A stretch of 52,124 nt of DNA from a bacterium. GTDB lineage: Bacteria > Bacillota_I > Bacilli_A > Acholeplasmatales > JAEDCM01. The DNA is taken from positions 1 through 52,124 of the forward strand of contig JAILKD010000048.1 of the NCBI GenBank assembly GCA_024694145.1. The letters are read 5' to 3'. Position 1 is the first letter of the stretch. Each line of letters opens with the position of its first letter. The notes under the pieces are model-generated. The model worked only from the letters and a program-made list of their open reading frames with translations. It searched no databases and had not been told where the DNA came from. The translations under genes were made by a program, and so were the position numbers. Positions 11,588 to 44,233 of this stretch are shown piece after piece.

Positions 11588-12415
11588 ATGAAAGTAGCTA
11601 TAATGTATGATTTTGATAAGACTTTATGTACTAAAGATATGCAAGAATATGGATTTATTCCAAGCGTTGGTTTGAGTCCAGCTGATTTTTGGGGCAAATG
11701 CGATAAATTAAGTAAGAAAGAACATATGGATAAAATATTATCATATTTATATTTGATGATAAAAGAATCTAATAAAAATGACATGCCTATTAAAAGAGAT
11801 ACATTTAATTCATGTGGTTCAAATATAGAATTCTATCCTGGTGTTACTACTTGGTTTAAACGTATTAATGAATACGGAAAAAGTATTGGAATTGAAGTAG
11901 AGCATTATATTATTTCATCAGGATTAAAAGAAATAATTGAAGGATCAGAAATAGCTAAAGAGTTTAAAGAAATATATGCATGTGAGTTTTTATATGATGT
12001 TAATGGAATTGCTATATGGCCTAAGTTAGTAGTAAATTATACAACTAAAACACAGTTTTTATTTAGAATAAACAAAGGTGTTTTAGATGTTAGTAATGAT
12101 AATGATTTAAATAAATCTATAGCTAATGATGATAGAAGAATTCCGTTTAGAAATATGATTTATATTGCCGATGGAATAACTGATGTTCCATGTATGAAAT
12201 TGGTTAAAACTAATGGCGGAAAGTCTATTGCAGTATATACTGAAAAAAGTGCAGATTTAGCCATTTCATTGTTAAATGAAAGAAGAGTAGATTTTATAGC
12301 TCCATCTAATTATTGTGAGAATAGTGAACTAGATTTTATAATGAAGAAAACACTAAAATCAATGAAGGCAATTGATGAGGTCGTTGATATTCATCATAAG
12401 CAACTTAACAAATAA
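11588..12415 (+). CDS. HAD-superfamily phosphatase
   Basis: A 275-residue HAD hydrolase. The nucleophile motif is YDFDKTLCTKD near residue 8 and motif II is HYIISSGLKE. A late YIADGITDVPCM carries the acidic metal-binding residues. The large cap between motifs I and II resembles phosphoserine-phosphatase-like HADs. Substrate unknown. The ATG at 11588 is preferred because AAGGATG overlaps an upstream in-frame GTG. It lies alone between terminator and promoter. Confidence 0.75.
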   Translation: MKVAIMYDFDKTLCTKDMQEYGFIPSVGLSPADFWGKCDKLSKKEHMDKILSYLYLMIKESNKNDMPIKRDTFNSCGSNIEFYPGVTTWFKRINEYGKSIGIEVEHYIISSGLKEIIEGSEIAKEFKEIYACEFLYDVNGIAIWPKLVVNYTTKTQFLFRINKGVLDVSNDNDLNKSIANDDRRIPFRNMIYIADGITDVPCMKLVKTNGGKSIAVYTEKSADLAISLLNERRVDFIAPSNYCENSELDFIMKKTLKSMKAIDEVVDIHHKQLNK

Positions 12416-12416
12416 T

Positions 12417-12445
12417 TTGAAATTGCAAATAAAAAGTTTTATAAT
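12417..12445 (+). promoter_or_regulatory. Promoter of the FakA-middle-domain gene
   Basis: TTGAAA (12417-12422), 17-bp spacer, TATAAT (12440-12445). It starts right after the HAD gene's stop codon. Confidence 0.75.
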
Positions 12446-12497
12446 ATATTTCGTATGATAAATTAAATCAAGCAGTAAAGTGTATAGGAGGTTTAAC

Positions 12498-12749
12498 ATG
12501 ATTGAATTTAGATATGATACACAATTATTAATTGAAGGTGAAGACCTTGATGAAGATGCTATTAGAGATTATATTCTAGCTAATTTTAAGGGTGACTGTT
12601 TATTAGTTGCTGGTGATGATGAATTAATCAAACTACATTTTCATACAAATGAACCTTGGGATGTAATGAAATATTGCAGAAGCTTAGGCGAAATTTATGA
12701 TATTGTAGTAGAAGATATGGATAGACAAACTAGAGGATTAAAAGGATAG
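12498..12749 (+). CDS. Stand-alone FakA/YloV middle-domain-like protein
   Basis: An 83-residue protein resembling the central domain of the fatty acid kinase FakA (YloV): an acidic FRYDTQLLIEG start, GDCLLVAGDDELIKLHFHTN with a conserved His-x-His, and GEIYDIVVEDMDRQT at the end. In FakA this domain follows the DhaL kinase domain; here no kinase domain is fused or adjacent. A DegV/FakB-type lipid-binding partner is encoded at 19090, so it may take part in fatty acid activation (inference). The start is ATG 12498, 6 nt after AGGAGG. Its stop overlaps a short hairpin (GGAAAAC/GTTTTCC). Confidence 0.65.
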   Translation: MIEFRYDTQLLIEGEDLDEDAIRDYILANFKGDCLLVAGDDELIKLHFHTNEPWDVMKYCRSLGEIYDIVVEDMDRQTRGLKG

Positions 12750-12775
12750 GAAAACTTGATTGTTTTCCCTTTTTA
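12749..12775 (+). terminator. Weak terminator between the FakA-like gene and xpt
   Basis: GGAAAAC (12749-12755) pairs with GTTTTCC (12762-12768), then CTTTTTAA. The short stem and T run suggest partial read-through into xpt. Confidence 0.55.
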
Positions 12776-12788
12776 ATAAGGTGATAAT

Positions 12789-13358
12789 ATGGAAGAATTA
12801 AAAAAGAAAATATTAGAAGATGGATATGTAATAGGTGATGACATTTTAAAAGTTGATTCATTTATTAACCATCAAATAGATACAGCTTTACTTGATAAGC
12901 TTGGAAAATACTTTTCAACTAAATTTAGTGGTGTAACAAAAATTCTTACAATTGAAGCTAGTGGTATAGCTTTTGGTGTAGGAGTGGCTAGATATTATGA
13001 TAATATTCCTATGGTATTTGCTAAAAAAAGTAAAAGTAAAACAGTAGATATGAATAATGTTTATAAAACAGAAATAAAATCATTTACTCGTGGAGTAGAA
13101 TCAGTTGTTACTGTAAGTAAGAAGTATTTAAATAAAGGTGATAACATTTTAATTGTTGATGATTTTCTTGCAGAGGGTAATGCTTCACTTGGATTAGTTG
13201 ATTTATGTAAGCAAGCTGGAGCTAATGTTGTTGGTGTTGCTATAGTTATTGAAAAAGGATTCCAAGGTGGAAGAAAAAAACTTGAAGATTTAGGAATAAG
13301 AGTAGAAAGTGCCGCAATTATTGATCACTTTGAAGATGGAAAAGTAGTTTTTAAATAA
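12789..13358 (+). CDS. xpt: Xanthine phosphoribosyltransferase
   Basis: Salvages xanthine to XMP with PRPP in the cytoplasm. The 189 residues align over the full length of Bacillus Xpt: DGYVIGDDILKVDSFINHQID at the N terminus, TIEASGIAFGV for the base site, the PRPP loop ILIVDDFLAEGNASLGLV, and IEKGFQGGRKKL. The start is ATG 12789 after AAGGTGA. The leader from the preceding gene is about 40 nt and holds no purine riboswitch, unlike Bacillus xpt-pbuX. A purine-nucleoside-type transporter follows, so the cluster looks like purine salvage. Confidence 0.93.
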   Translation: MEELKKKILEDGYVIGDDILKVDSFINHQIDTALLDKLGKYFSTKFSGVTKILTIEASGIAFGVGVARYYDNIPMVFAKKSKSKTVDMNNVYKTEIKSFTRGVESVVTVSKKYLNKGDNILIVDDFLAEGNASLGLVDLCKQAGANVVGVAIVIEKGFQGGRKKLEDLGIRVESAAIIDHFEDGKVVFK

Positions 13359-13364
13359 ATATTT

Positions 13365-13404
13365 AAAGTCAAAACAATTATGTAAACGTTTTGACTTTTT
13401 TTAT
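13365..13404 (+). terminator. xpt terminator
   Basis: AAAGTCAAAAC (13365-13375) pairs with GTTTTGACTTT (13388-13398), followed by T-rich sequence. Confidence 0.85.
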
Positions 13405-13420
13405 TTTATAATATTCATAC

Positions 13421-13453
13421 TTTAATTTATAGTATTAATATGATATATTAATA
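13421..13453 (+). promoter_or_regulatory. Candidate bmpA-operon promoter with 9-bp inverted-repeat operator
   Basis: A perfect inverted repeat, TATTAATAT-GAT-ATATTAATA (13433-13453), overlies a possible promoter TTTAAT (13421-13426), 17-bp spacer, TATATT (13444-13449). The repeat covers the spacer and -10 box, as a repressor operator would. The alternative TATAAT at 13407-13412 has no matching -35. Confidence 0.45.
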
Positions 13454-13468
13454 ATGTAAAAATTGTGT

Positions 13469-13530
13469 AGAGTTTCTAAATGTTTTTGTATGTACATTTA
13501 TTTATTACTCTTACTTTTCTTTAAAAAGTA
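13469..13530 (+). promoter_or_regulatory. Structured leader of the bmpA operon
   Basis: Two consecutive hairpins lie 95-155 nt upstream of bmpA. One is a two-part stem (AGAGT 13469-13473 with ACTCT 13507-13511, and AAATGT 13478-13483 with ACATTT 13494-13499). The next is TACTTTT (13512-13518) with AAAAGTA (13524-13530). No T run follows, so it is not a terminator. It does not match the purine riboswitch core. Confidence 0.35.
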
Positions 13531-13624
13531 AAAAAAGAAAAGGACATTAAGGAGATACTGAGTAAAAATAATAATATGAAAATAATAGATTTTCTAACAA
13601 TAGAAAAGGAAAGAGGAATATAAT

Positions 13625-14839
13625 ATGAAAAAATTATTATTAGGTGTTCTTACTTGCTGTGCTGCTTTAAGCTTAATGGCTTGTGGTAAAGGCGGTACAA
13701 AGATTGGTTTCATCTTCCTACATGATGAAAAATCAACTTATGATAAGAACTTCATTGATGCAGCTAAGGATGCATGTAAAGAACTTGGTGTAACTCCACT
13801 TCTTAAAACAAACATCGAAGAAGGTGAAGGATGTTACAATGCTGCTAAAGAATTAGTAAATAAAGGATGCAAGGGTGTATTTGCTGATTCATTCGGACAT
13901 GAAGATTTCATGATTCGTGCTGCAAAAGAATATAAGAATGTACAATTTGGTCATGCAACTGGTACAAAGGCTCATACTGAAAAGCTAGATAACTTCCACA
14001 ACGCATTCGCTTCAATCTATGAAGGTAGATATGTTGCTGGTATTGCTGCTGGTATGAAAATACAAGAAATGATCAATAACAACACTATTACAGCTGATAA
14101 AGCAATGATGGGTTATGTTGGTGCTCACCCATATGCAGAAGTTGTATCTGGTTATACTTCATTCTATCTTGGAGCTAAATCAGTATGTAAAGATGTTAAG
14201 ATGACTGTAAGATATACAAATTCATGGTATGATGAAAGTGCTGAAAAGACTACATGTGAAACTTTAATTAGTACTGATAAAGCCGTTCTAATTAGTCAAC
14301 ATGCTGACTCACAAGGTGCTCCATCAGTTTGTGAAGCAAACAAAGTTCCAAACGTATTCTACAATGGTTCAAATGATAAACTAGTAAATTCTTATTTAAC
14401 TTCATCAAGAATTAACTGGAGACCATTCTTCAAATACTTCATCAATAGTATTCTAAACAATACAAAGATGGATTATGACTGGGTTGGTACAATTGATAAT
14501 GGGGCTGTAGAAGTTTATACTGCAAACACTAAGATTGCTGCTCCTGGTACTCAAGAAGCAATGGATAAAGCAATTGCTGATATTAAAGCTGGAAAGATTC
14601 ATGTATTTGATACAAATAACTTCACTGTATCATACTTCGGTGATGGTGTAAAAGATTTCACTAACTTAAATGCTACAGTTGATGAAAACGGAAAAGTAAC
14701 AGGTTATTTAGCTGATGTTGATGATGATGGAAAATTCATTGGTGAAACTGAAGTTATCACAAATGGATATTTCAGTGAATCAACAAAGAGAAGTGCTCCA
14801 TACTTTGATATTAGAATTGATGGAATCACAGAAAAATAA
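13625..14839 (+). CDS. bmpA: BMP/PnrA-family nucleoside-binding lipoprotein
   Basis: Substrate-binding component of a nucleoside ABC importer, anchored outside the membrane. Residues 1-19 are a signal peptide with lipobox LMA-C20. The mature 404-residue precursor shows the Bmp fold: KIGFIFLHDEKSTYDKNF, then FGHATG, NAFASIYEGRYVAGIAAG and the late ISQHADSQGA. It has lysine- and aspartate-rich C-terminal repeats. The start is ATG 13625, 8 nt after AGAGG. It is the first gene of the bmpA-nupOPQ operon; an attenuator hairpin after it should keep its mRNA more abundant than that of the membrane genes. Confidence 0.9.
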   Translation: MKKLLLGVLTCCAALSLMACGKGGTKIGFIFLHDEKSTYDKNFIDAAKDACKELGVTPLLKTNIEEGEGCYNAAKELVNKGCKGVFADSFGHEDFMIRAAKEYKNVQFGHATGTKAHTEKLDNFHNAFASIYEGRYVAGIAAGMKIQEMINNNTITADKAMMGYVGAHPYAEVVSGYTSFYLGAKSVCKDVKMTVRYTNSWYDESAEKTTCETLISTDKAVLISQHADSQGAPSVCEANKVPNVFYNGSNDKLVNSYLTSSRINWRPFFKYFINSILNNTKMDYDWVGTIDNGAVEVYTANTKIAAPGTQEAMDKAIADIKAGKIHVFDTNNFTVSYFGDGVKDFTNLNATVDENGKVTGYLADVDDDGKFIGETEVITNGYFSESTKRSAPYFDIRIDGITEK

Positions 14840-14862
14840 TAATTAAACTAATAAAAGCTATT

Positions 14863-14895
14863 GGCGAAGCTTTGTGCTTCGCCTTTAACTTATTT
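14863..14895 (+). terminator. Attenuator-like hairpin between bmpA and nupO
   Basis: GGCGAAGC (14863-14870) pairs with GCTTCGCC (14876-14883), then TTTAACTTATTTTT. A GC-rich stem with a broken T tract fits partial termination. Confidence 0.65.
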
Positions 14896-14915
14896 TTAAA
14901 ATAGGAGTTGATTAT

Positions 14916-16523
14916 ATGGAAAGTTATGCAATTGAACTTAAAAACATAACTAAAACATTTGGCAAAGTTGTTGCTAATAAGAATGTAAATCTTAATGTAA
15001 AAAAAGGCGAAATACTGGCATTACTTGGTGAAAATGGTAGTGGTAAAACTACTTTGATGAATATGATTTCTGGAATATATTTCCCTGATAAAGGTAATAT
15101 TTATATTGATGGAAATGAAGTAGTTATTAAATCACCAAAGGATGCGTTTAAGTATGGTATAGGAATGATTCATCAACACTTTAAATTAGTTGATATCTTT
15201 TCTGCTGCTGAAAACATTATTCTTGGGATGAATGATAATAAAAAACTAAAAACTAGGGATGTTAATAATGAAGTTAGTGAAATAGCAAATCGTTATGGAT
15301 TTGACATTGATCCAAAGAAAAAGATATATGATATGAGTGTTAGCGAAAAGCAAACTGTTGAAATCATAAAAGTATTATATCGTGGTGCAAACATTCTAAT
15401 ATTAGATGAACCAACTGCTGTATTAACTCCACAAGAAATAGAAAAACTATTTAAAGTTTTAAGAGCAATGCGTGATGATGGTAAATCAATAATTATCATT
15501 ACTCATAAATTAAATGAAGTAATGGAAATAAGTGATAGAGTCACAATTCTTAGAAAAGGGAAATACATTGATACAGTTAATACAAAAGAAACGAATGAAA
15601 AAGAATTAACTGATATGATGGTAGGAAGAAAGATTAATTTAAAAATCAGTAGAGTTAAAACTGATTTTGATAGACCTTTACTAGAAGTAAGAAACCTATT
15701 TGTAAAAGCTGATGATGGTAGTGATGCTATTAAAAATGTTAGTTTCTACATTAGAGGCGGTGAAATGTTAGGTATTGCTGGTATTTCAGGATGTGGGCAA
15801 AAAGAATTATGTGAAGCTATTGCTGGTATTAGACCAATAGCAAGTGGACAAATAACTCATAAGGGTGAAAGTATAATTCACTTAAAGCCAAAAGAGATTA
15901 TCGAAAAGGGTATATCTATGAGTTTCATCCCTGAAGATAGACTTGGAATGGGACTTGCTCCATCATTTTCTATAACTGATAATATGATGTTAAAGAATTA
16001 TGGAGAATCTAATGGTATATTTGTTGATAGAAAAAAAGCTCGTGCTAGAGCAGAAGCTTTAATTGAAAAACTAGATATAGTAACCCCATCAACTGAAACA
16101 CCTGTTAGACGTCTATCAGGTGGTAATGTTCAAAAAGTTCTAGTAGGACGTGAAATTGAATCAGGTCCAAATGTAATAGTAACAGCTTATCCAGTTAGAG
16201 GACTTGATATCAATTCAAGTTATGTTATTTATGATATTTTAAATGAACAAAAAGCAAATGGTGTAGGTATATTGTTTGTTGGTGAAGACCTAGATGTTAT
16301 GCTTGCATTATGTGATAAGATCTTAGTTTTATGTCATGGCGAAGTAATGGGTGTCGTTCATGCTGCTAAAACTACTAAAGAAAAATTAGGATTAATGATG
16401 ACTGGTTCACTTAACTTACTTGAAGAACAAAGTGATAGAGCTTGGGGTATGGCAAAAGACTCACAACTTACAGAAGAAGAGTGGATTCAACTTGGAAAAG
16501 AAGATAGCGAGGTGAATGAATAA
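14916..16523 (+). CDS. nupO: Nucleoside ABC importer ATPase with two ABC domains (NupO/YufO-like)
   Basis: Drives nucleoside import from the cytoplasmic face. The 535 residues hold two ABC cassettes. The first has Walker A GENGSGKTT, signature MSVSEKQTVE and Walker B ILILDEPTAVL. The second has the degenerate Walker A GISGCGQKEL usual in this family, signature LSGGNVQKVLVGRE, and VRGLDI in place of a normal Walker B, so only one site is likely fully catalytic. The N-terminal QHFKLVD Q-loop is typical of BmpA-associated ATPases. Its TAA overlaps the ATG of the next gene. Confidence 0.9.
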   Translation: MESYAIELKNITKTFGKVVANKNVNLNVKKGEILALLGENGSGKTTLMNMISGIYFPDKGNIYIDGNEVVIKSPKDAFKYGIGMIHQHFKLVDIFSAAENIILGMNDNKKLKTRDVNNEVSEIANRYGFDIDPKKKIYDMSVSEKQTVEIIKVLYRGANILILDEPTAVLTPQEIEKLFKVLRAMRDDGKSIIIITHKLNEVMEISDRVTILRKGKYIDTVNTKETNEKELTDMMVGRKINLKISRVKTDFDRPLLEVRNLFVKADDGSDAIKNVSFYIRGGEMLGIAGISGCGQKELCEAIAGIRPIASGQITHKGESIIHLKPKEIIEKGISMSFIPEDRLGMGLAPSFSITDNMMLKNYGESNGIFVDRKKARARAEALIEKLDIVTPSTETPVRRLSGGNVQKVLVGREIESGPNVIVTAYPVRGLDINSSYVIYDILNEQKANGVGILFVGEDLDVMLALCDKILVLCHGEVMGVVHAAKTTKEKLGLMMTGSLNLLEEQSDRAWGMAKDSQLTEEEWIQLGKEDSEVNE

Positions 16524-17851
16524 TGGAAGATAAAACATTAAAAGTGCAAAAAGACCCATTAATTCATATCGCTAAAAGAGGAGATATAACTATTGGAAAA
16601 ACAATAGCAATTAAGGCTGTTGCTTTCTTAATGGCATTTATTATTTCTTCAATTTTACTTGCAGCGAGTGAAGGATGTAATCCATTTACATTCTTAGGTT
16701 CATTATTCTCTGGATCATTTGGTTCGGGATTAAGTATTTGGACAACTCTAAAAGACATGGCTATTTTATTAGGTTTAGGTTTAGCACTGCTTCCAGCATT
16801 TAAGATGAAATTCTGGAATATAGGAGCTGATGGACAAACTTTAATAGCAGCTTTAACATCTTATATGTGCTTATATTTCTGGCATGATAAAATGCCTGGT
16901 GCATTACTTTGTATAATTTGTTTGATTGTTGCTATAGCTAGTGGTATAGTGTGGGCTATAATACCAGCTATATTTAAAGCAAAATGGAATACTAATGAAA
17001 CATTATTTACTTTAATGATGAACTATGTAGCTATTCAATGTGTAGCAATATTCATTAATAAATTTGCTACAGGTGGATCAAATACACTTCCTGTTATTTA
17101 TGAAGGAAGCCTACCAATGATTTATGAATATTTAACTCCTATTTTATTAATAGCTATAGTTACAGTAGTAGTTGCTTTATATATTAGACATACTAAACAT
17201 GGATTTGAATTATCACTTGTTGGTGAATCAGTAAATACTGCTAAATATGTTGGTATTAATGTTAAAAAAGTCGTTATTAGAACATTAATTATATCAGGTA
17301 TTATTTGTGGTTTAATTGGCTTTATTTTAACTAATGGATTAAACCATGTTGTTAATACTAGTTCAACTGGAAATAAGGGATTTACAGCCATTATCGTTGT
17401 TTGGTTAGCTAATTTCAATCCATATTTTATGATACTAACTACATTTATGATTGTATTCTTACAAAGAGGTACTGCAGAATTACTTACAGTAACTGGTTCA
17501 ACAAATGATTCAATCACTATGATAGTTACATCAATATTCATTTTCTTTATTATTGGTTGTACATTCTTCTCTAGATATAAAGTATTATTTAGAAGAAATG
17601 AAGAAGAAAAAATTGATAATAAGTTCTTTGCATTTATGGCTATAATTTTTGGAGCAATATCAAGATTTGTTACTAAAAATTATGTTAGTGTAACTAAATT
17701 CTTTAAGAAGATATTTAAAATAAAGGAAAAAGAAGAATTAGTTCAAAATAATAGTGAAGATTTAAAAGAAGAAAAGATTGAAGAAAAAGAAGAAGATAGC
17801 GGAACTCCTATGGTTGAACAGGAAGTTCTTAATATGAAGGATGGTGAATAA
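16523..17851 (+). CDS. nupP: Nucleoside ABC importer permease 1 (NupP-like)
   Basis: A 442-residue polytopic permease of the branched-chain/BMP family: GLGLALLPAFKMKFWNIGADGQ near the N terminus, NETLFTLMMNYVAI, and ELSLVGESVNTAKYVGI, the conserved cytoplasmic coupling loop. About the last 45 residues form a Glu/Lys-rich tail without membrane segments, about 90 residues longer overall than Bacillus NupP. The start overlaps the nupO stop (TAATG) and follows GAGGTG. It pairs with NupQ to form the channel. Confidence 0.88.
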   Translation: MEDKTLKVQKDPLIHIAKRGDITIGKTIAIKAVAFLMAFIISSILLAASEGCNPFTFLGSLFSGSFGSGLSIWTTLKDMAILLGLGLALLPAFKMKFWNIGADGQTLIAALTSYMCLYFWHDKMPGALLCIICLIVAIASGIVWAIIPAIFKAKWNTNETLFTLMMNYVAIQCVAIFINKFATGGSNTLPVIYEGSLPMIYEYLTPILLIAIVTVVVALYIRHTKHGFELSLVGESVNTAKYVGINVKKVVIRTLIISGIICGLIGFILTNGLNHVVNTSSTGNKGFTAIIVVWLANFNPYFMILTTFMIVFLQRGTAELLTVTGSTNDSITMIVTSIFIFFIIGCTFFSRYKVLFRRNEEEKIDNKFFAFMAIIFGAISRFVTKNYVSVTKFFKKIFKIKEKEELVQNNSEDLKEEKIEEKEEDSGTPMVEQEVLNMKDGE

Positions 17852-17853
17852 TT

Positions 17854-18822
17854 ATGATTACATGGATTATAGGATCAATTACATTATTTGCTGTTCTTTT
17901 ATACGGAGCGCTTGGTGAAATAATCACAGAAAAATCAGGACACTTAAACCTTGGTACTCCAGGTGTTATGTGCTTTGGTGGTTTAGGTGGATGCTTAGGA
18001 ATCTATTTTATAGTTGATAAAATGGGCTATAGTAACGCTGGAGCAATCATTTTAATTATTATATTTGGAATATTGTTTACAGTAATATTCTCAGCTATAG
18101 TAGGCCTTTTATATAGTTTCTTAACAGTAACACTTAGAGCAAATCAAAATATCACAGGATTAGCTATTACAACATTTGGTGTTGCAGGAGCTAACTTTAT
18201 GGGCGGCAAAGTTGAAACTACTTATTTAATGGGTGCATCAAACAAAATATTTGGTTCTATGTTTGGAATTACTGATAAATCAAATGATTTTGTAAGATTA
18301 TTCTTTGGTCATGGTTTCTTAGTATATATTGCTTTAATTCTTGCAGTTCTTTCTTATTTTTTCTTAAAGAAAACAAAGATGGGCTTAAGACTTAGAGCAG
18401 TTGGTGAAAACCCAGCTACAGCAGATGCTGTTGGTGTTAACGTAACAAGATATAGATATATAGCTACAATTGTTGGTTCGGTTATTGCTGGATTTGGTGG
18501 CCTTACTTATGTAATGGTTCATATGCATGGTGCATTTGAACAAGCTTCATCAATCGAGTCACTTGGTTGGTTAGCTGTTGCACTTGTAATATTCTCTATT
18601 TGGAGACCTAATATTTGTATACTTGGTTCATTTATATTTGCCTTATTATATCAATTACCATATTCTGGTGTACTAAAGGTAAGTAGTGCAGGCTTTGAAG
18701 CACTTAAGGCACTACCATATGTTGTAACTATAATTGTATTAATTATTACTAGTATCTTTGGTGGAAAATCAGTTCAACCACCACAAGCTTTAGGTACAAA
18801 TTACTTTAGAGAAGATAGATAA
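17854..18822 (+). CDS. nupQ: Nucleoside ABC importer permease 2 (NupQ-like)
   Basis: A 322-residue membrane permease with about eight to ten helices. It begins with GALGEIITEKSGHLNLGTPG, the family's first conserved stretch. The coupling loop GLRLRAVGENPATADAVGVN and SLGWLAVALVIFSIWRP are also typical. It lies 2 bp after the NupP stop codon, completing the bmpA-nupOPQ importer. The 85-residue gene downstream starts one base after its stop. Confidence 0.9.
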   Translation: MITWIIGSITLFAVLLYGALGEIITEKSGHLNLGTPGVMCFGGLGGCLGIYFIVDKMGYSNAGAIILIIIFGILFTVIFSAIVGLLYSFLTVTLRANQNITGLAITTFGVAGANFMGGKVETTYLMGASNKIFGSMFGITDKSNDFVRLFFGHGFLVYIALILAVLSYFFLKKTKMGLRLRAVGENPATADAVGVNVTRYRYIATIVGSVIAGFGGLTYVMVHMHGAFEQASSIESLGWLAVALVIFSIWRPNICILGSFIFALLYQLPYSGVLKVSSAGFEALKALPYVVTIIVLIITSIFGGKSVQPPQALGTNYFREDR

Positions 18823-21973: not shown

Positions 21974-23062
21974 TTACATTAAAACTTTACTTAAGAATTC
22001 TTTAAGCCTAGGACTCTTTGGATTGTTAAATATTTCATCAGGAGTTCCTTGCTCAGCAATAGTTCCTTGATCCATAAACATAACACGAGTACCAACTTCT
22101 TTAGCAAATCCCATTTCATGTGTAACTATTACCATAGTCATACCAGTATCTGCTATTTCTTTTATTAATGCTAATACTTCGCCAACCATTTCTGGGTCAA
22201 GGGCAGAAGTAGGTTCATCAAATAGCATTACTTTTGGATTCATAGCTAATGCTCTAACAATAGCTATTCTTTGCTTTTGTCCGCCTGATAGAGTAGATGG
22301 ATATTTATTTGCTTTATCTTCAAGACCTATACGCTTTAATAATTCTATTGCTTTTTCATAAGCGGCACCCTTAATTTCTTTAACACTTTTATAAGGATAG
22401 TCTATATATTCTAATGGTTTTGGATATTCTAATCTATCTATTTTTCTTTCAGCATTTTCGATAATAGTAGTAAGTTTAAGCTTTTTATTTGATAATTCCT
22501 TATCATAAGTAATAAATTCTTTACCTTTTCTTTCTATTACTGATTTTGTCTTTTCCCATTCTTTTTCAACTTCGCTAAGAAGTGGTCTAGTTTCATCGAT
22601 AATGGCTTGATTATAAGCTTTTTTACTATCTATATCAGCATAAATCTTTTCTTTATTTGCTTCTAGATAAGCATTATATTTATCCATTTTTTTATTGTTT
22701 TTGTTAGCTTCTTTTAGCATTTGACGTCCAACTAAAACTGGAGCTAACATTATATTATCTAATACAGTTAGATTCTCAAATAAGTTGAATTGTTGGAATA
22801 CCATTCCAATATTTCTTCTACAAATATTTATATCAATTTTTAAATCTGTTAAATCATTACCTAAAAATACTATTTGACCACTTGTTGGATCTTCAAGTAC
22901 ATTTAAGCATCTTAAGAATGTTGATTTTCCACCACCTGATGGGCCAATTATTACATCAATATCGCCTTCATAAATTGTTTCATTAATATCATTTAATACT
23001 TGAAGGTCTCCAAAGTTTTTAGTTAAATGTTTTACTTCAATAAGAGCTTTTTTATCTTGCAT
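21974..23062 (-). CDS. Polar amino acid ABC transporter ATPase (GlnQ-like) with a large helical insertion
   Basis: Powers import of a polar amino acid. It has Walker [10 protein letters not shown] (residues 40-48), Q-loop FQQ (89-91), signature LSGGQKQR (258-265), Walker [13 protein letters not shown] (278-289) and switch H315. At 362 residues it is about 120 longer than GlnQ-type ATPases. The extra part (about 115-226) is a Lys/Glu-rich, probably coiled-coil segment placed between the Q-loop helix and the signature. All catalytic motifs remain intact. The start overlaps the permease gene by 11 bp. It is the last gene of the three-gene operon transcribed from 24.9 kb. Confidence 0.9.
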
Positions 23063-23834
23063 TTTTATTTAGGCTCCTTTCAAGTATTTTTAGTAATCTA
23101 GCAATTACAAATACTATTACAAAGTAGATGATGCCCATTACTAGGTATACTAATGTATAATCATAAGATGCATCAGCAATATGCTTCATTGCATTTGTTA
23201 AATCTATAATTGCAATGAATGATGCAACAGATGTTTCTTTTATTAATGTAATAAATTCATTTCCTAAAGATGGTAAGCAGTTTTTAATTGCTTGTGGGAA
23301 AACAACCCTTATCATTACGTTACTATAAGGTAGACCTAAACTACGTCCAGCTTCCATTTGACCAACTGGAACAGAATTAATTCCACCACGTAAAATTTCA
23401 CTAATATATGCACCACTATTTAGACCAAAAGCAATTATTGCTATTATTATTGCTGGCCCTTTATAAGTAGCAAAAACGATAAAGTATATAATCAATAATT
23501 GAACAACAGTAGGAGTACCCCTACATACACTTACATATGCTTTAAATATTTGTTTAATGCCAAGTATAAATACATTTTGACTTCTAAGTCCTTCAACTAA
23601 ACAAGTCACAAGACCAAGCATTAATCCTATAATAAAGCCAAATAATGATATTATAGCAGTTACAAACAAACCGCTCCAAATAGTTTTAACATTACCACTT
23701 GAAAAGCTTGTTTTTAACCTTTCACCTAAACTATTTCTATAAATGATACAAAGCACTACAAGTAATAGCGCTAAAGTACCTAACATGACAAGTTGAACAA
23801 TGGTTTCTTTTGAAAGCTTCTTGTTGTTTTGCAT
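23052..23834 (-). CDS. Polar amino acid ABC transporter permease (GlnP-like)
   Basis: A 260-residue inner permease of the His/Glu/Gln/Arg family. It has an N-terminal helix, then [20 protein letters not shown] and [15 protein letters not shown]. The coupling loop is [41 protein letters not shown] follows. About five to six helices are visible; it probably acts as a homodimer. It begins 3 bp after the binding-protein stop and its end overlaps the ATPase start by 11 bp, so all three are one operon. Confidence 0.92.
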
Positions 23835-23837
23835 ATT

Positions 23838-24635
23838 TTATCCGAAATATTTTTCTAGTAATTTTGCATACTCGCCATTTGCTTTAATAGTTTTAATGAA
23901 TTCATTTAAAGAATTAACTAATTCTGTATTACCTTTCTTTACAGCAATTGCGTATTCTTCTTCTGTAAGTGCAGAATCTAAAATTGATAATGTAGTTGAA
24001 TAGTTTTTAGATACAATATTTTTAGCTGGAGCTTCATCAAGAATTACAGCATCAATTTTTCCATCATTTAAATCTTTGATTGCTAAACCACCATTATCAT
24101 ATGGATTACATTTAGCATCTTTAATTCCATCGAATTCCCAGTCAGCATCTCCTTCAACATAGAATTGACCAGTAGTTGCTCTTTGAACACCAATCTTCTT
24201 TCCTTCTAGTTGAGATAGGATATAAGTAATCTTTTCATCATTAGTCATTGTTTCTGTTGCTGTTTTAATTTCGTTAGCAGTAGTAGTACTTAAAACAACA
24301 ACTTGATTTGATGAATAATATCCATCAGAAAATGATAAAGTCTTTTCTCTTTTTTCATTTTTTGTGATACCAGCGATTGCAATATCAATTTTTCCAGTTG
24401 ATGCACTTGTTAAAGCAGCATCAAAGTCCATATCTTTAATTTCAATTTTCTTTCCTACTGATTCACCATATTTCTTGATTAAGTCCATATCAAAACCAGT
24501 AATATTTCCATCTTCCTTATATTCGAATGGTGGGAAAGCAGCGTTAGTTCCAATAACTAACTTGTTTGATTTTCCGCAAGCAACTAAGCTTAATGAAGCA
24601 GCGCCTGTTAATAAAGCAGTTAATAATTTTTTCAT
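23838..24635 (-). CDS. Amino acid ABC transporter substrate-binding lipoprotein (family 3)
   Basis: A 265-residue lipoprotein. Signal peptide 1-19 has lipobox LVA-C20. The mature part is a family 3 solute-binding protein: LVIGTNAAFPPFEYKEDGNI, FDMDLIKKYGE, ALTSASTGKIDIAIAGIT and KIDAVILDEAPA. The substrate is a polar amino acid; the exact one cannot be read from the sequence. AAGGAG precedes the ATG. It is the first gene of the operon and is controlled by the tandem attenuator leader at 24636-24865. Confidence 0.92.
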   Translation of the reverse strand: MKKLLTALLTGAASLSLVACGKSNKLVIGTNAAFPPFEYKEDGNITGFDMDLIKKYGESVGKKIEIKDMDFDAALTSASTGKIDIAIAGITKNEKREKTLSFSDGYYSSNQVVVLSTTTANEIKTATETMTNDEKITYILSQLEGKKIGVQRATTGQFYVEGDADWEFDGIKDAKCNPYDNGGLAIKDLNDGKIDAVILDEAPAKNIVSKNYSTTLSILDSALTEEEYAIAVKKGNTELVNSLNEFIKTIKANGEYAKLLEKYFG

Positions 24636-24670
24636 TTTTTATATCTCCTTATTTATATAAATTTATTTAA

Positions 24671-24698
24671 CTAAAAGAAAAGAGCCATCAAGGCTCTT
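24671..24698 (-). terminator. Leader terminator of copy 2
   Basis: On the minus strand AAGAGCC pairs with GGCTCTT around TTGAT, then TTCTTTTAG. The 5' arm plus loop (GCCTTGA) is exactly complementary to the upstream strand TCAAGGC at 24755-24761. Confidence 0.88.
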
Positions 24699-24761
24699 AT
24701 TTAACAATATACTCATACACCATATGATGGTGTAATCTTTGCTAATATCAAGATGCCTTGA
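24671..24761 (-). promoter_or_regulatory. Tandem leader element, copy 2 (candidate riboswitch or antitermination site)
   Basis: On the minus strand, in order: TCAAGGC (24755-24761), which can pair either with CTTGA (24748-24752) or with the terminator; then the 45-nt conserved core (24701-24745); then the terminator. Core: P1 TTAGCAA:TTGTTAA; internal loop AGAT opposite TGAGTATA; P2 TACACCA:TGGTGTA capped by TCATA. AAAGATT, CACC, ATGAGTATATT and AATAA are shared with copy 1. The class is not recognised. Confidence 0.75.
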
Positions 24762-24787
24762 AAAAGAAAAAACCACACCAAGTGGTT
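24762..24787 (-). terminator. Leader terminator of copy 1
   Basis: On the minus strand AACCAC pairs with GTGGTT around TTGGT, then TTTTCTTTTT. CACTTGG in the 5' arm and loop is exactly complementary to CCAAGTG at 24842-24848. Confidence 0.88.
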
Positions 24788-24862
24788 CATTATTGTAAAA
24801 TATACTCATGCATTAATTCTAGGTGCAATCTTTACAAAACTCACTTGGACTTTTCTCAAGTT
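24762..24862 (-). promoter_or_regulatory. Tandem leader element, copy 1 (candidate riboswitch or antitermination site)
   Basis: On the minus strand, in order: ACTTG (24858-24862); CCAAGTG (24842-24848), which can pair with ACTTG or with the terminator; the 45-nt core (24793-24837); then the terminator. Core: P1 TTGTAAA:TTTACAA; internal loop GAT opposite TGAGTATAT; a short P2 TGCA:TGCA with an 11-nt loop. P1 differs from copy 2 at several paired positions while pairing is kept. Confidence 0.75.
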
Positions 24863-24870
24863 ATGCCCTT

Positions 24871-24899
24871 ATTTTAATACCTTTATATAATAAAGTCAA
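24871..24899 (-). promoter_or_regulatory. Promoter of the amino acid transporter operon
   Basis: On the minus strand TTGACT (24894-24899), 17-bp spacer, TAAAAT (24871-24876). Transcription should start near 24865, immediately before copy 1, so the leader consists almost wholly of the two elements. The 24636-24993 interval holds no gene. Confidence 0.8.
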
Positions 24900-24993: not shown

Positions 24994-25578
24994 ATGGCCA
25001 TCGTTGACGATATTACTAAAACTTTAGAAAAGTTTTATAAAACATGCAAGTATGAAAAATTCGCTTTTAAGTATCAAAATTATATGTCTAATAAGAAACT
25101 TAATGATGATACAAAGAATTATTTAAGAATACTACATACTAACTTTTTATTTTTAATTGATGAAAAAGCAGCATTTAGAGAATATGAAAGAATTTTTAGA
25201 CCAACAGTTGATAAGTACTTACAAGCTTATTATTTTTTAGAGGTATTAATGCTTACAAAGAAAAAGGAATTTGATGAAGCAAGTAAAAGACTTAAATTTT
25301 ATAAAGATCATAAATCATTATCAAAAGAAGATGCTTATTCGCTTGAGCTATTTAACGATATCTATAGTGATAAAGAAATAAAAGACATTGAAAAGAAGTT
25401 TCCATTAAATAATAGGATCCTTTATCAAAATGTCTTTAATGCAAGATTACTTATGGATTATTATGCCTTAAAGGGCGACAAGAAATGTGAAGATTACGCC
25501 ATTTTCATTGTTAAGCAGAAAACTGATTTTACTGATAGCGTTAATAGAGCAAAAGAGATTATTGATATTTTTAAATAA
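24994..25578 (+). CDS. Helical protein of unknown function
   Basis: A 194-residue soluble protein, nearly all helix, rich in Lys, Tyr and Phe, with a spacing that suggests TPR-like helix pairs (YLQAYYFLEVLMLTKKKEFD is one). No signal peptide, membrane segment or catalytic motif. The ATG at 24994 follows GAGGTGA. It is monocistronic, with its own promoter and a bidirectional terminator. I do not recognise the family. Confidence 0.75.
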   Translation: MAIVDDITKTLEKFYKTCKYEKFAFKYQNYMSNKKLNDDTKNYLRILHTNFLFLIDEKAAFREYERIFRPTVDKYLQAYYFLEVLMLTKKKEFDEASKRLKFYKDHKSLSKEDAYSLELFNDIYSDKEIKDIEKKFPLNNRILYQNVFNARLLMDYYALKGDKKCEDYAIFIVKQKTDFTDSVNRAKEIIDIFK

Positions 25579-43416: not shown

Positions 43417-44103
43417 ATGAAAAGAGGAAAGAAGTACATTGAAGCTGCAAAGCTTGTAGATAGTACTAAAAAGTATCCTGCAACTGAAGCTTGCGAATTA
43501 GCTAAGAAAACTAACTGCGCTAAATTCGATGCTACTGTTGAAGCTGCATTCCATTTAAATATTGACCCACGTAAGGCTGAACAAAATCTACGTGGCGCAA
43601 TCGTTTTACCATATGGAACAGGAAAAACTAAAAGAGTACTAGTAATTGCAAAAGCTGCCAAGGCTGATGAAGCATTAAAAGCTGGTGCAGATTATGCAGG
43701 TGATGCTGAATATATCGAAAAGATTAAAGGCGGATGGTTCGAATTCGATACTATCATCGCTACTCCAGATATGATGGCTGAACTTGGTAAATTAGGTAGA
43801 GTATTAGGACCTAAAGGTTTAATGCCAAACCCTAAAACAGGAACAGTAACTATGAATGTTGCTGATGCTGTTAGAGATGCAAAAGGTGGTAAGGTTGAAT
43901 ACCGTACTGATAAAGTTGGTAACATCTTAGTACCAATTGGAAAAGCATCATTTGATGCAGACAAATTATTTGGTAACTTAAAGGCTATCAAAGATCAATT
44001 AGATAGAATTAAACCATCAACAGTAAAAGGTACTTACATGAAGAACATCGTAGTAACAACTACTATGGGTCCTGGTATCAAAGTTGATGAAGCTACATTC
44101 TAA
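43417..44103 (+). CDS. rplA: 50S ribosomal protein L1
   Basis: A 228-residue protein of the L1 stalk and likely translational repressor of its own operon. It has [54 protein letters not shown] and [19 protein letters not shown]. The ATG at 43417 follows AGGAGG. The L10 leader follows its stop. Confidence 0.98.
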
Positions 44104-44233
44104 TTAACTTAATCACCGTAGAATCAGGTGCTTAGTAATAAGCTTAATTTCCTGCCGAGGTATATAAAAGATTATTATAACTCTTTTCTCGTGCAGGAAA
44201 GAGTTATATTTTTTAGAAAAAGGAGGTAATCTT
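44104..44233 (+). promoter_or_regulatory. L10 leader (rplJ-rplL attenuator)
   Basis: The 130-nt interval has CACC:GGTG and GCTTA:TAAGC stems. TTTCCTGC (44148-44155) can pair with GCAGGAAA (44193-44200). The latter also belongs to a terminator hairpin (TATAACTCTTT with AAAGAGTTATA, 44176-44208, then a T run). This is the known Bacillota arrangement in which L10(L12) complexes bind the leader and promote termination. Confidence 0.8.
44176..44214 (+). terminator. Attenuator terminator of the L10 leader
   Basis: TATAACTCTTT (44176-44186) pairs with AAAGAGTTATA (44198-44208), then TTTTTT. Confidence 0.85.

Follow-up and report, generated by a model that had tools for sequence, protein, structure and literature searches.

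A candidate arginine-sensing RNA switch, present in tandem, in front of transporter and arginine biosynthesis genes of an Acholeplasmatales bacterium

A gut bacterium related to mycoplasmas carries, in front of an amino-acid importer operon and again in front of the complete set of arginine biosynthesis genes, two copies in a row of a previously undescribed structured RNA with its own intrinsic terminators. Comparative evidence alone, without binding, termination or expression data, suggests that the element is a new riboswitch class that terminates transcription when arginine is plentiful; direct binding, arginine as the ligand and the direction of switching are inferred, and we hold this reading with moderate confidence. 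No bacterial arginine riboswitch was found in full-text searches, although these covered only open-licence papers and an unseen report is possible. One paper uses the phrase “arginine riboswitch” in passing.

Anatomy of the tandem leader

The window, that is, the whole stretch of 52,124 nucleotides that was analysed (contig JAILKD010000048.1 of assembly GCA_024694145.1), contains a minus-strand leader in front of a transporter operon. The original prediction was that this leader holds two copies of an unrecognised structured RNA element, each with a 7-bp P1 and a P2 hairpin, and that the ligand is an amino acid or a related compound. Re-reading of the sequence confirmed both cores, AAAGATT...ATGAGTATATT, with the P1 pairs as predicted and the two P1 starts 92 nt apart. 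What had not been noted is that each copy, with the core AAAGAU-P2-UGAGYAUAWU, sits in a larger unit with an intrinsic terminator and a competing antiterminator. The features of the leader and operon are as follows:

24894..24899 (minus strand), promoter −35 box TTGACT, 17 nt from the −10 box; the argG copy has the same layout (TTGACA-17-TACAAT)
24871..24876 (minus strand), promoter −10 box TAAAAT
24843..24861 (minus strand), unit 1 upstream hairpin HP1 (ACTTG...CAAGT), kept in all 5 leaders of the genus and competing with antiterminator 1; a hairpin sits here in relatives too
24842..24848 (minus strand), unit 1 antiterminator 5' strand CCAAGTG, complementary to 24778-24784
24831..24837 (minus strand), unit 1 P1 5' strand TTGTAAA, pairing with 24793-24799
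24799..24833 (minus strand), unit 1 conserved core AAAGATTGCA...TGCATGAGTATATT, with P2 formed by 24824-24827 and 24809-24812; covariance model match of 52.8 bits, E 1e-9 in 114 kb
24793..24799 (minus strand), unit 1 P1 3' strand TTTACAA
24767..24785 (minus strand), unit 1 intrinsic terminator CCACTTGGTGTGGTTTTTT, containing the antiterminator 3' strand CACTTGG (24778-24784); conserved in 5 of 5 leaders of the genus
24749..24760 (minus strand), unit 2 upstream hairpin HP1 (CAAG-gcat-CTTG), with the antiterminator 5' strand CAAGGC at 24755-24760
24739..24745 (minus strand), unit 2 P1 5' strand TTAGCAA, pairing with 24701-24707
24706..24740 (minus strand), unit 2 conserved core AAAGATTACACCAT...ATGGTGTATGAGTATATT, with P2 formed by 24727-24734 and 24716-24723; covariance model match of 57.9 bits, E 7e-11 in 114 kb
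24701..24707 (minus strand), unit 2 P1 3' strand TTGTTAA
24673..24696 (minus strand), unit 2 intrinsic terminator GAGCCTTGATGGCTCTTTTCTTTT, containing the antiterminator 3' strand GCCTTG (24689-24694)
24645..24650 (minus strand), ribosome-binding site AAGGAG of the first gene
23838..24635 (minus strand), substrate-binding lipoprotein (SBP_bac_3)
23052..23834 (minus strand), ABC transporter permease, polar amino acid type
21974..23062 (minus strand), ABC transporter ATPase, GlnQ/ArtP type, with an insertion

In unit 1 the possible outer stem is CCAAGTG:CACTTGG and the terminator CCACttggtGTGGTTTTTT; in unit 2 these are CAAGGC:GCCTTG and GAGCCttgatGGCTCTTTTCTTTT. In both units the 3' strand of the outer stem is also part of the terminator, so that antiterminator and terminator exclude each other, and constrained folding places the two states within about 3 kcal/mol of each other in all ten units of the genus. 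P2 is strong in copy 2 (8 bp) and weak in copy 1 (4 bp, UGCA:UGCA). Copy 2 with its outer stem folds far better than shuffled sequences (z = −4.4, 0 of 200 as good), while copy 1 alone is modest (z = −1.5). Searches against Rfam returned no family at gathering thresholds for the element and only chance-level scores at permissive ones. Elsewhere in the window, a ribosomal protein L10 leader (RF00557, 66.7 bits) lies at 44098-44219 (plus strand), and the divergent neighbour of the tandem leader, at 24994-25578 (plus strand), encodes a 194-aa protein without a Pfam or NCBIfam match.

Gene context and distribution

A pattern search of the whole genome revealed one further leader, with the same tandem arrangement, preceding argG-argH-argC-argJ-argB-argD-argF. 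These genes, identified by reading their translations (argG also by Pfam), form the complete route from glutamate to arginine. In the stretch designated L004 a histidine biosynthesis operon (11849-17968, minus strand) lies just upstream of the arginine operon in the same orientation, and no copy of the element was found in front of it. Two other species of the genus have tandem pairs, one before argG and before an amino-acid transporter, the other (an incomplete genome) before the transporter only.

The argG genes of a sister family have a related core in their leaders, and a covariance model was built from 14 sequences of both families. Over 160 genomes of the order Acholeplasmatales, this model gave 38 matches with E below 1e-5 in 31 genomes, followed by a gap to E above 8e-4; the 14 training sequences match by construction. 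Since tandem pairs count once, there are 33 leaders, and in the 31 where the next gene is visible, 25 precede argG, 5 precede amino-acid ABC transporters, and 1 precedes a HAD-family gene. The last is an intact copy with terminator (locus L104, 2297-3218, in the Anaeroplasma-like genome G013), found in a genome in which no good argG match was found; it is possibly a relic after argG loss or a re-used switch. A scan of GTDB contigs with a sister-family pattern found 26 stretches, 24 of which are in genomes labelled Acholeplasmatales, Anaeroplasma, Bacillales and the like, including the cultured isolate Anaeroplasma bactoclasticum ATCC 27112, which has the element before argG. The other two, in a Saprospiraceae and an Anaerolineales genome, look like chance.

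The range of the element is narrow. Samples of the class and the phylum searched with the first model gave no convincing strong hit elsewhere: hits outside the order scored 26-31 bits, and those inspected lay mostly inside coding sequence. However, examination of only the argG leaders of the class uncovered one divergent copy in another order, UUACAAGAU-AGAA-gcaa-UUCU-UGAGUAUAAUU (18.4 bits), directly 5' of a T-box and argG. It too has a terminator and a competing outer stem, AGACTTTTA:TAAAAGTCT. This single example is suggestive, not proof, and a pattern search of that genome's order gave no second convincing copy.

Base pairing and the proposed switch

On 24 distinct cores, all six P2 pairs show changes on both sides and 95.7% of cells pair, while sliding one strand by 1-3 columns drops this to 14-44%. 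Sequence conservation is high within each family and most changes separate three groups (unit 1, unit 2, Anaeroplasma type), so the number of independent events is smaller than the cell count suggests. AAAGAU and the UGAG.AUA of the 3' strand are invariant in that alignment. A hairpin precedes the core in all the families, with different sequences in different genera. P1, in contrast, occurs only in the window's own genus, where it is kept with changes on both sides; it has no counterpart in Anaeroplasma-type copies, where the flanking bases vary freely. The original placement of P1 within the element may therefore need revision, as it is better explained as part of the antiterminator than as part of the conserved aptamer, and the outer boundary of the aptamer is unsettled.

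In the sister family the core is followed by AUAAUUAUG, a variable hairpin P4, CAUAAUUAU and a terminator. AUAAUUAUG:CAUAAUUAU and P4 compete, with folding energies of similar size in most sequences; an H-type pseudoknot of the two was rejected as sterically unlikely because there is no loop between the stems, and they were treated as mutually exclusive. The 3' strand of P4 can pair instead with the 5' arm of the terminator. Species-specific P4 strands pair at −8.3 kcal/mol with their own partner and at −5.9 with others' partners, and the antiterminator gives −8.7 against −6.4. None of 5000 permutations is as good in either case. Shared ancestry inflates such tests, but the control pairing, which had the same ancestry, shows no difference.

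These data have led us to propose a model whereby each copy is a compact transcription-terminating riboswitch whose sensor is HP1 followed by AAAGAU, hairpin P2 and UGAGYAUAWU. With little arginine, the 3' strand of the core is paired, in this genus with an upstream strand (P1, continued into CCAAGUG:CACUUGG or CAAGGC:GCCUUG) and in Anaeroplasma relatives with a downstream strand (AUAAUUAUG:CAUAAUUAU). That pairing goes with an antiterminator, so that arginine import and synthesis genes are transcribed. With plenty of arginine the core would fold around it, HP1 would form, the 5' half of the terminator would be freed and transcription would stop; two copies in series would give tighter or steeper repression. 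The OFF direction is inferred from the expectation that the end product represses synthesis and uptake genes. In this genus it requires the bound state to favor HP1 over the outer stem, whereas ligand stabilisation of P1 would favor the antiterminator, an ON switch opposite to the proposal. The presence of HP1 in the sister family, where no competing partner was seen, suggests that HP1 belongs to the bound state.

ALTERNATIVES. The element could instead be the RNA target of an unidentified regulatory protein, as in LicT/SacY or PyrR systems. A hairpin with a conserved asymmetric internal loop next to a terminator also fits protein-target RNAs, and the exact conservation of AUAAUUAUG and CAUAAUUAU in 28 of 28 Anaeroplasma-type sequences exceeds what pairing alone needs. 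This possibility remains but is considered unlikely: no regulator gene was recognised next to the elements read, conserved nucleotides flank a variable hairpin, as in aptamers, and ArgR is absent from all element-bearing genomes tested (PF02863 in 0 of 21 and 0 of 24 genomes, while found in 8 of 14 control genomes). A DNA operator or a leader-peptide attenuator is very unlikely. ATAATTATG/CATAATTAT is a palindromic DNA pair that superficially resembles ARG boxes, but it lies downstream of the promoter inside terminator-bearing leaders, this genus lacks the palindrome, and ArgR is absent. Leader ORFs hold at most 3 arginines, scattered, and T insertions after ATGAGTATATT would shift the reading frame.

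Ligand assignment and comparison with known systems

Three lines of evidence point to arginine, narrowing the original prediction of an amino-acid-related ligand, which is supported. The first is the operon content, as argG to argF form the whole route to arginine and the end product is the natural feedback signal. The second is the T-box that follows the element in the sister family, whose specifier position reads GAA-CGC or GAA-CGU, arginine codons, in 16 of 23 leaders. At this place four leaders (L042, L059, L089, L097) read GAA-UGA and two others (L088, L095) read GAA-ACGA; the specifier may have shifted or changed. The third is the transporter type. The window's binding protein best matches the Lys/Arg/Orn-binding model TIGR01096 among NCBIfam models, below cut-off, and among PDB sequences is closest to AncQR and other amino-acid-binding proteins, including ArtJ. 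AncQR is probably an arginine/glutamine-binding ancestral protein, 6SVF and 4PRS appear to be arginine-binding proteins of Thermotoga, and 4I62 and 4H5F, the best matches of a relative's transporter, may have been solved with arginine. The ATPases of these transporters (window 21974-23062, minus strand; also L105 4361-5266 and L107 5959-6831, both minus strand) carry an extra charged stretch of roughly 50-95 residues between the Walker A motif and the signature motif, splitting the ABC_tran match in two for the window protein, and the transporter gene under the element in genome G010 (L105 5269-6792, minus strand) fuses substrate-binding and permease domains in one protein.

A riboswitch with the same anatomy could sense a different small molecule, such as ornithine, citrulline, argininosuccinate, another basic amino acid, or a nitrogen or starvation signal. 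Transporter specificity is only predicted, since the NCBIfam models matched are below their cut-offs and include Gln and cystine models, and one copy precedes the HAD gene. In view of the operon content and the neighboring T-box, this alternative is regarded as unlikely, though more plausible than the others considered.

Validated bacterial riboswitches appear to cover few amino acids (lysine, glycine, glutamine), and arginine is an obvious gap even though it binds RNA readily in vitro. It is slightly more likely than not that the element represents a natural bacterial L-arginine aptamer class, the first of its kind, controlling arginine synthesis and uptake in a bacterial order lacking ArgR, with the same small sensor core attached to at least two different terminator platforms and combined either with a second copy of itself or with an arginine T-box. 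Such a riboswitch would explain how bacteria without the arginine repressor control the pathway and would provide a small natural aptamer for arginine sensors.

Among known systems, the lysine riboswitch (L box) is likewise an amino-acid-sensing leader RNA controlling synthesis and uptake of a basic amino acid, often by premature termination, but the present element is far smaller, with unrelated sequence and architecture. The arginine-specific T-box leader (RF00230) controls argG by antitermination in the same and related genomes, next to the new element, but senses tRNA. A minimal tRNA-Arg-sensing, T-box-like antiterminator would share this regulon and an ON-under-starvation logic; it is nonetheless very unlikely, as neither the specifier loop nor the GGUGGNACCGCG antiterminator is present in the element and there is no RF00230 match to it, while a full T-box sits 3' of it in Anaeroplasma relatives. 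Guanidine-I to -IV riboswitches and the Gd4v variant (PMC9788692) have ligands that carry a guanidinium group, and class IV has a transcription-terminator platform, but their genes (exporters, urea carboxylases, transaminases) and structures differ, and arginine was ruled out as the Gd4v ligand in that paper. The claimed arginine riboswitch in the Aspergillus arginase mRNA also involves proposed arginine sensing by mRNA; it is eukaryotic, is not a transcription terminator, and was judged in a review to lack sufficient support (PMC10043782). Finally, the tandem glycine riboswitch and other tandem riboswitches also place two similar sensors in series before one operon; here, each copy has its own complete terminator/antiterminator, and the sequence is unrelated.
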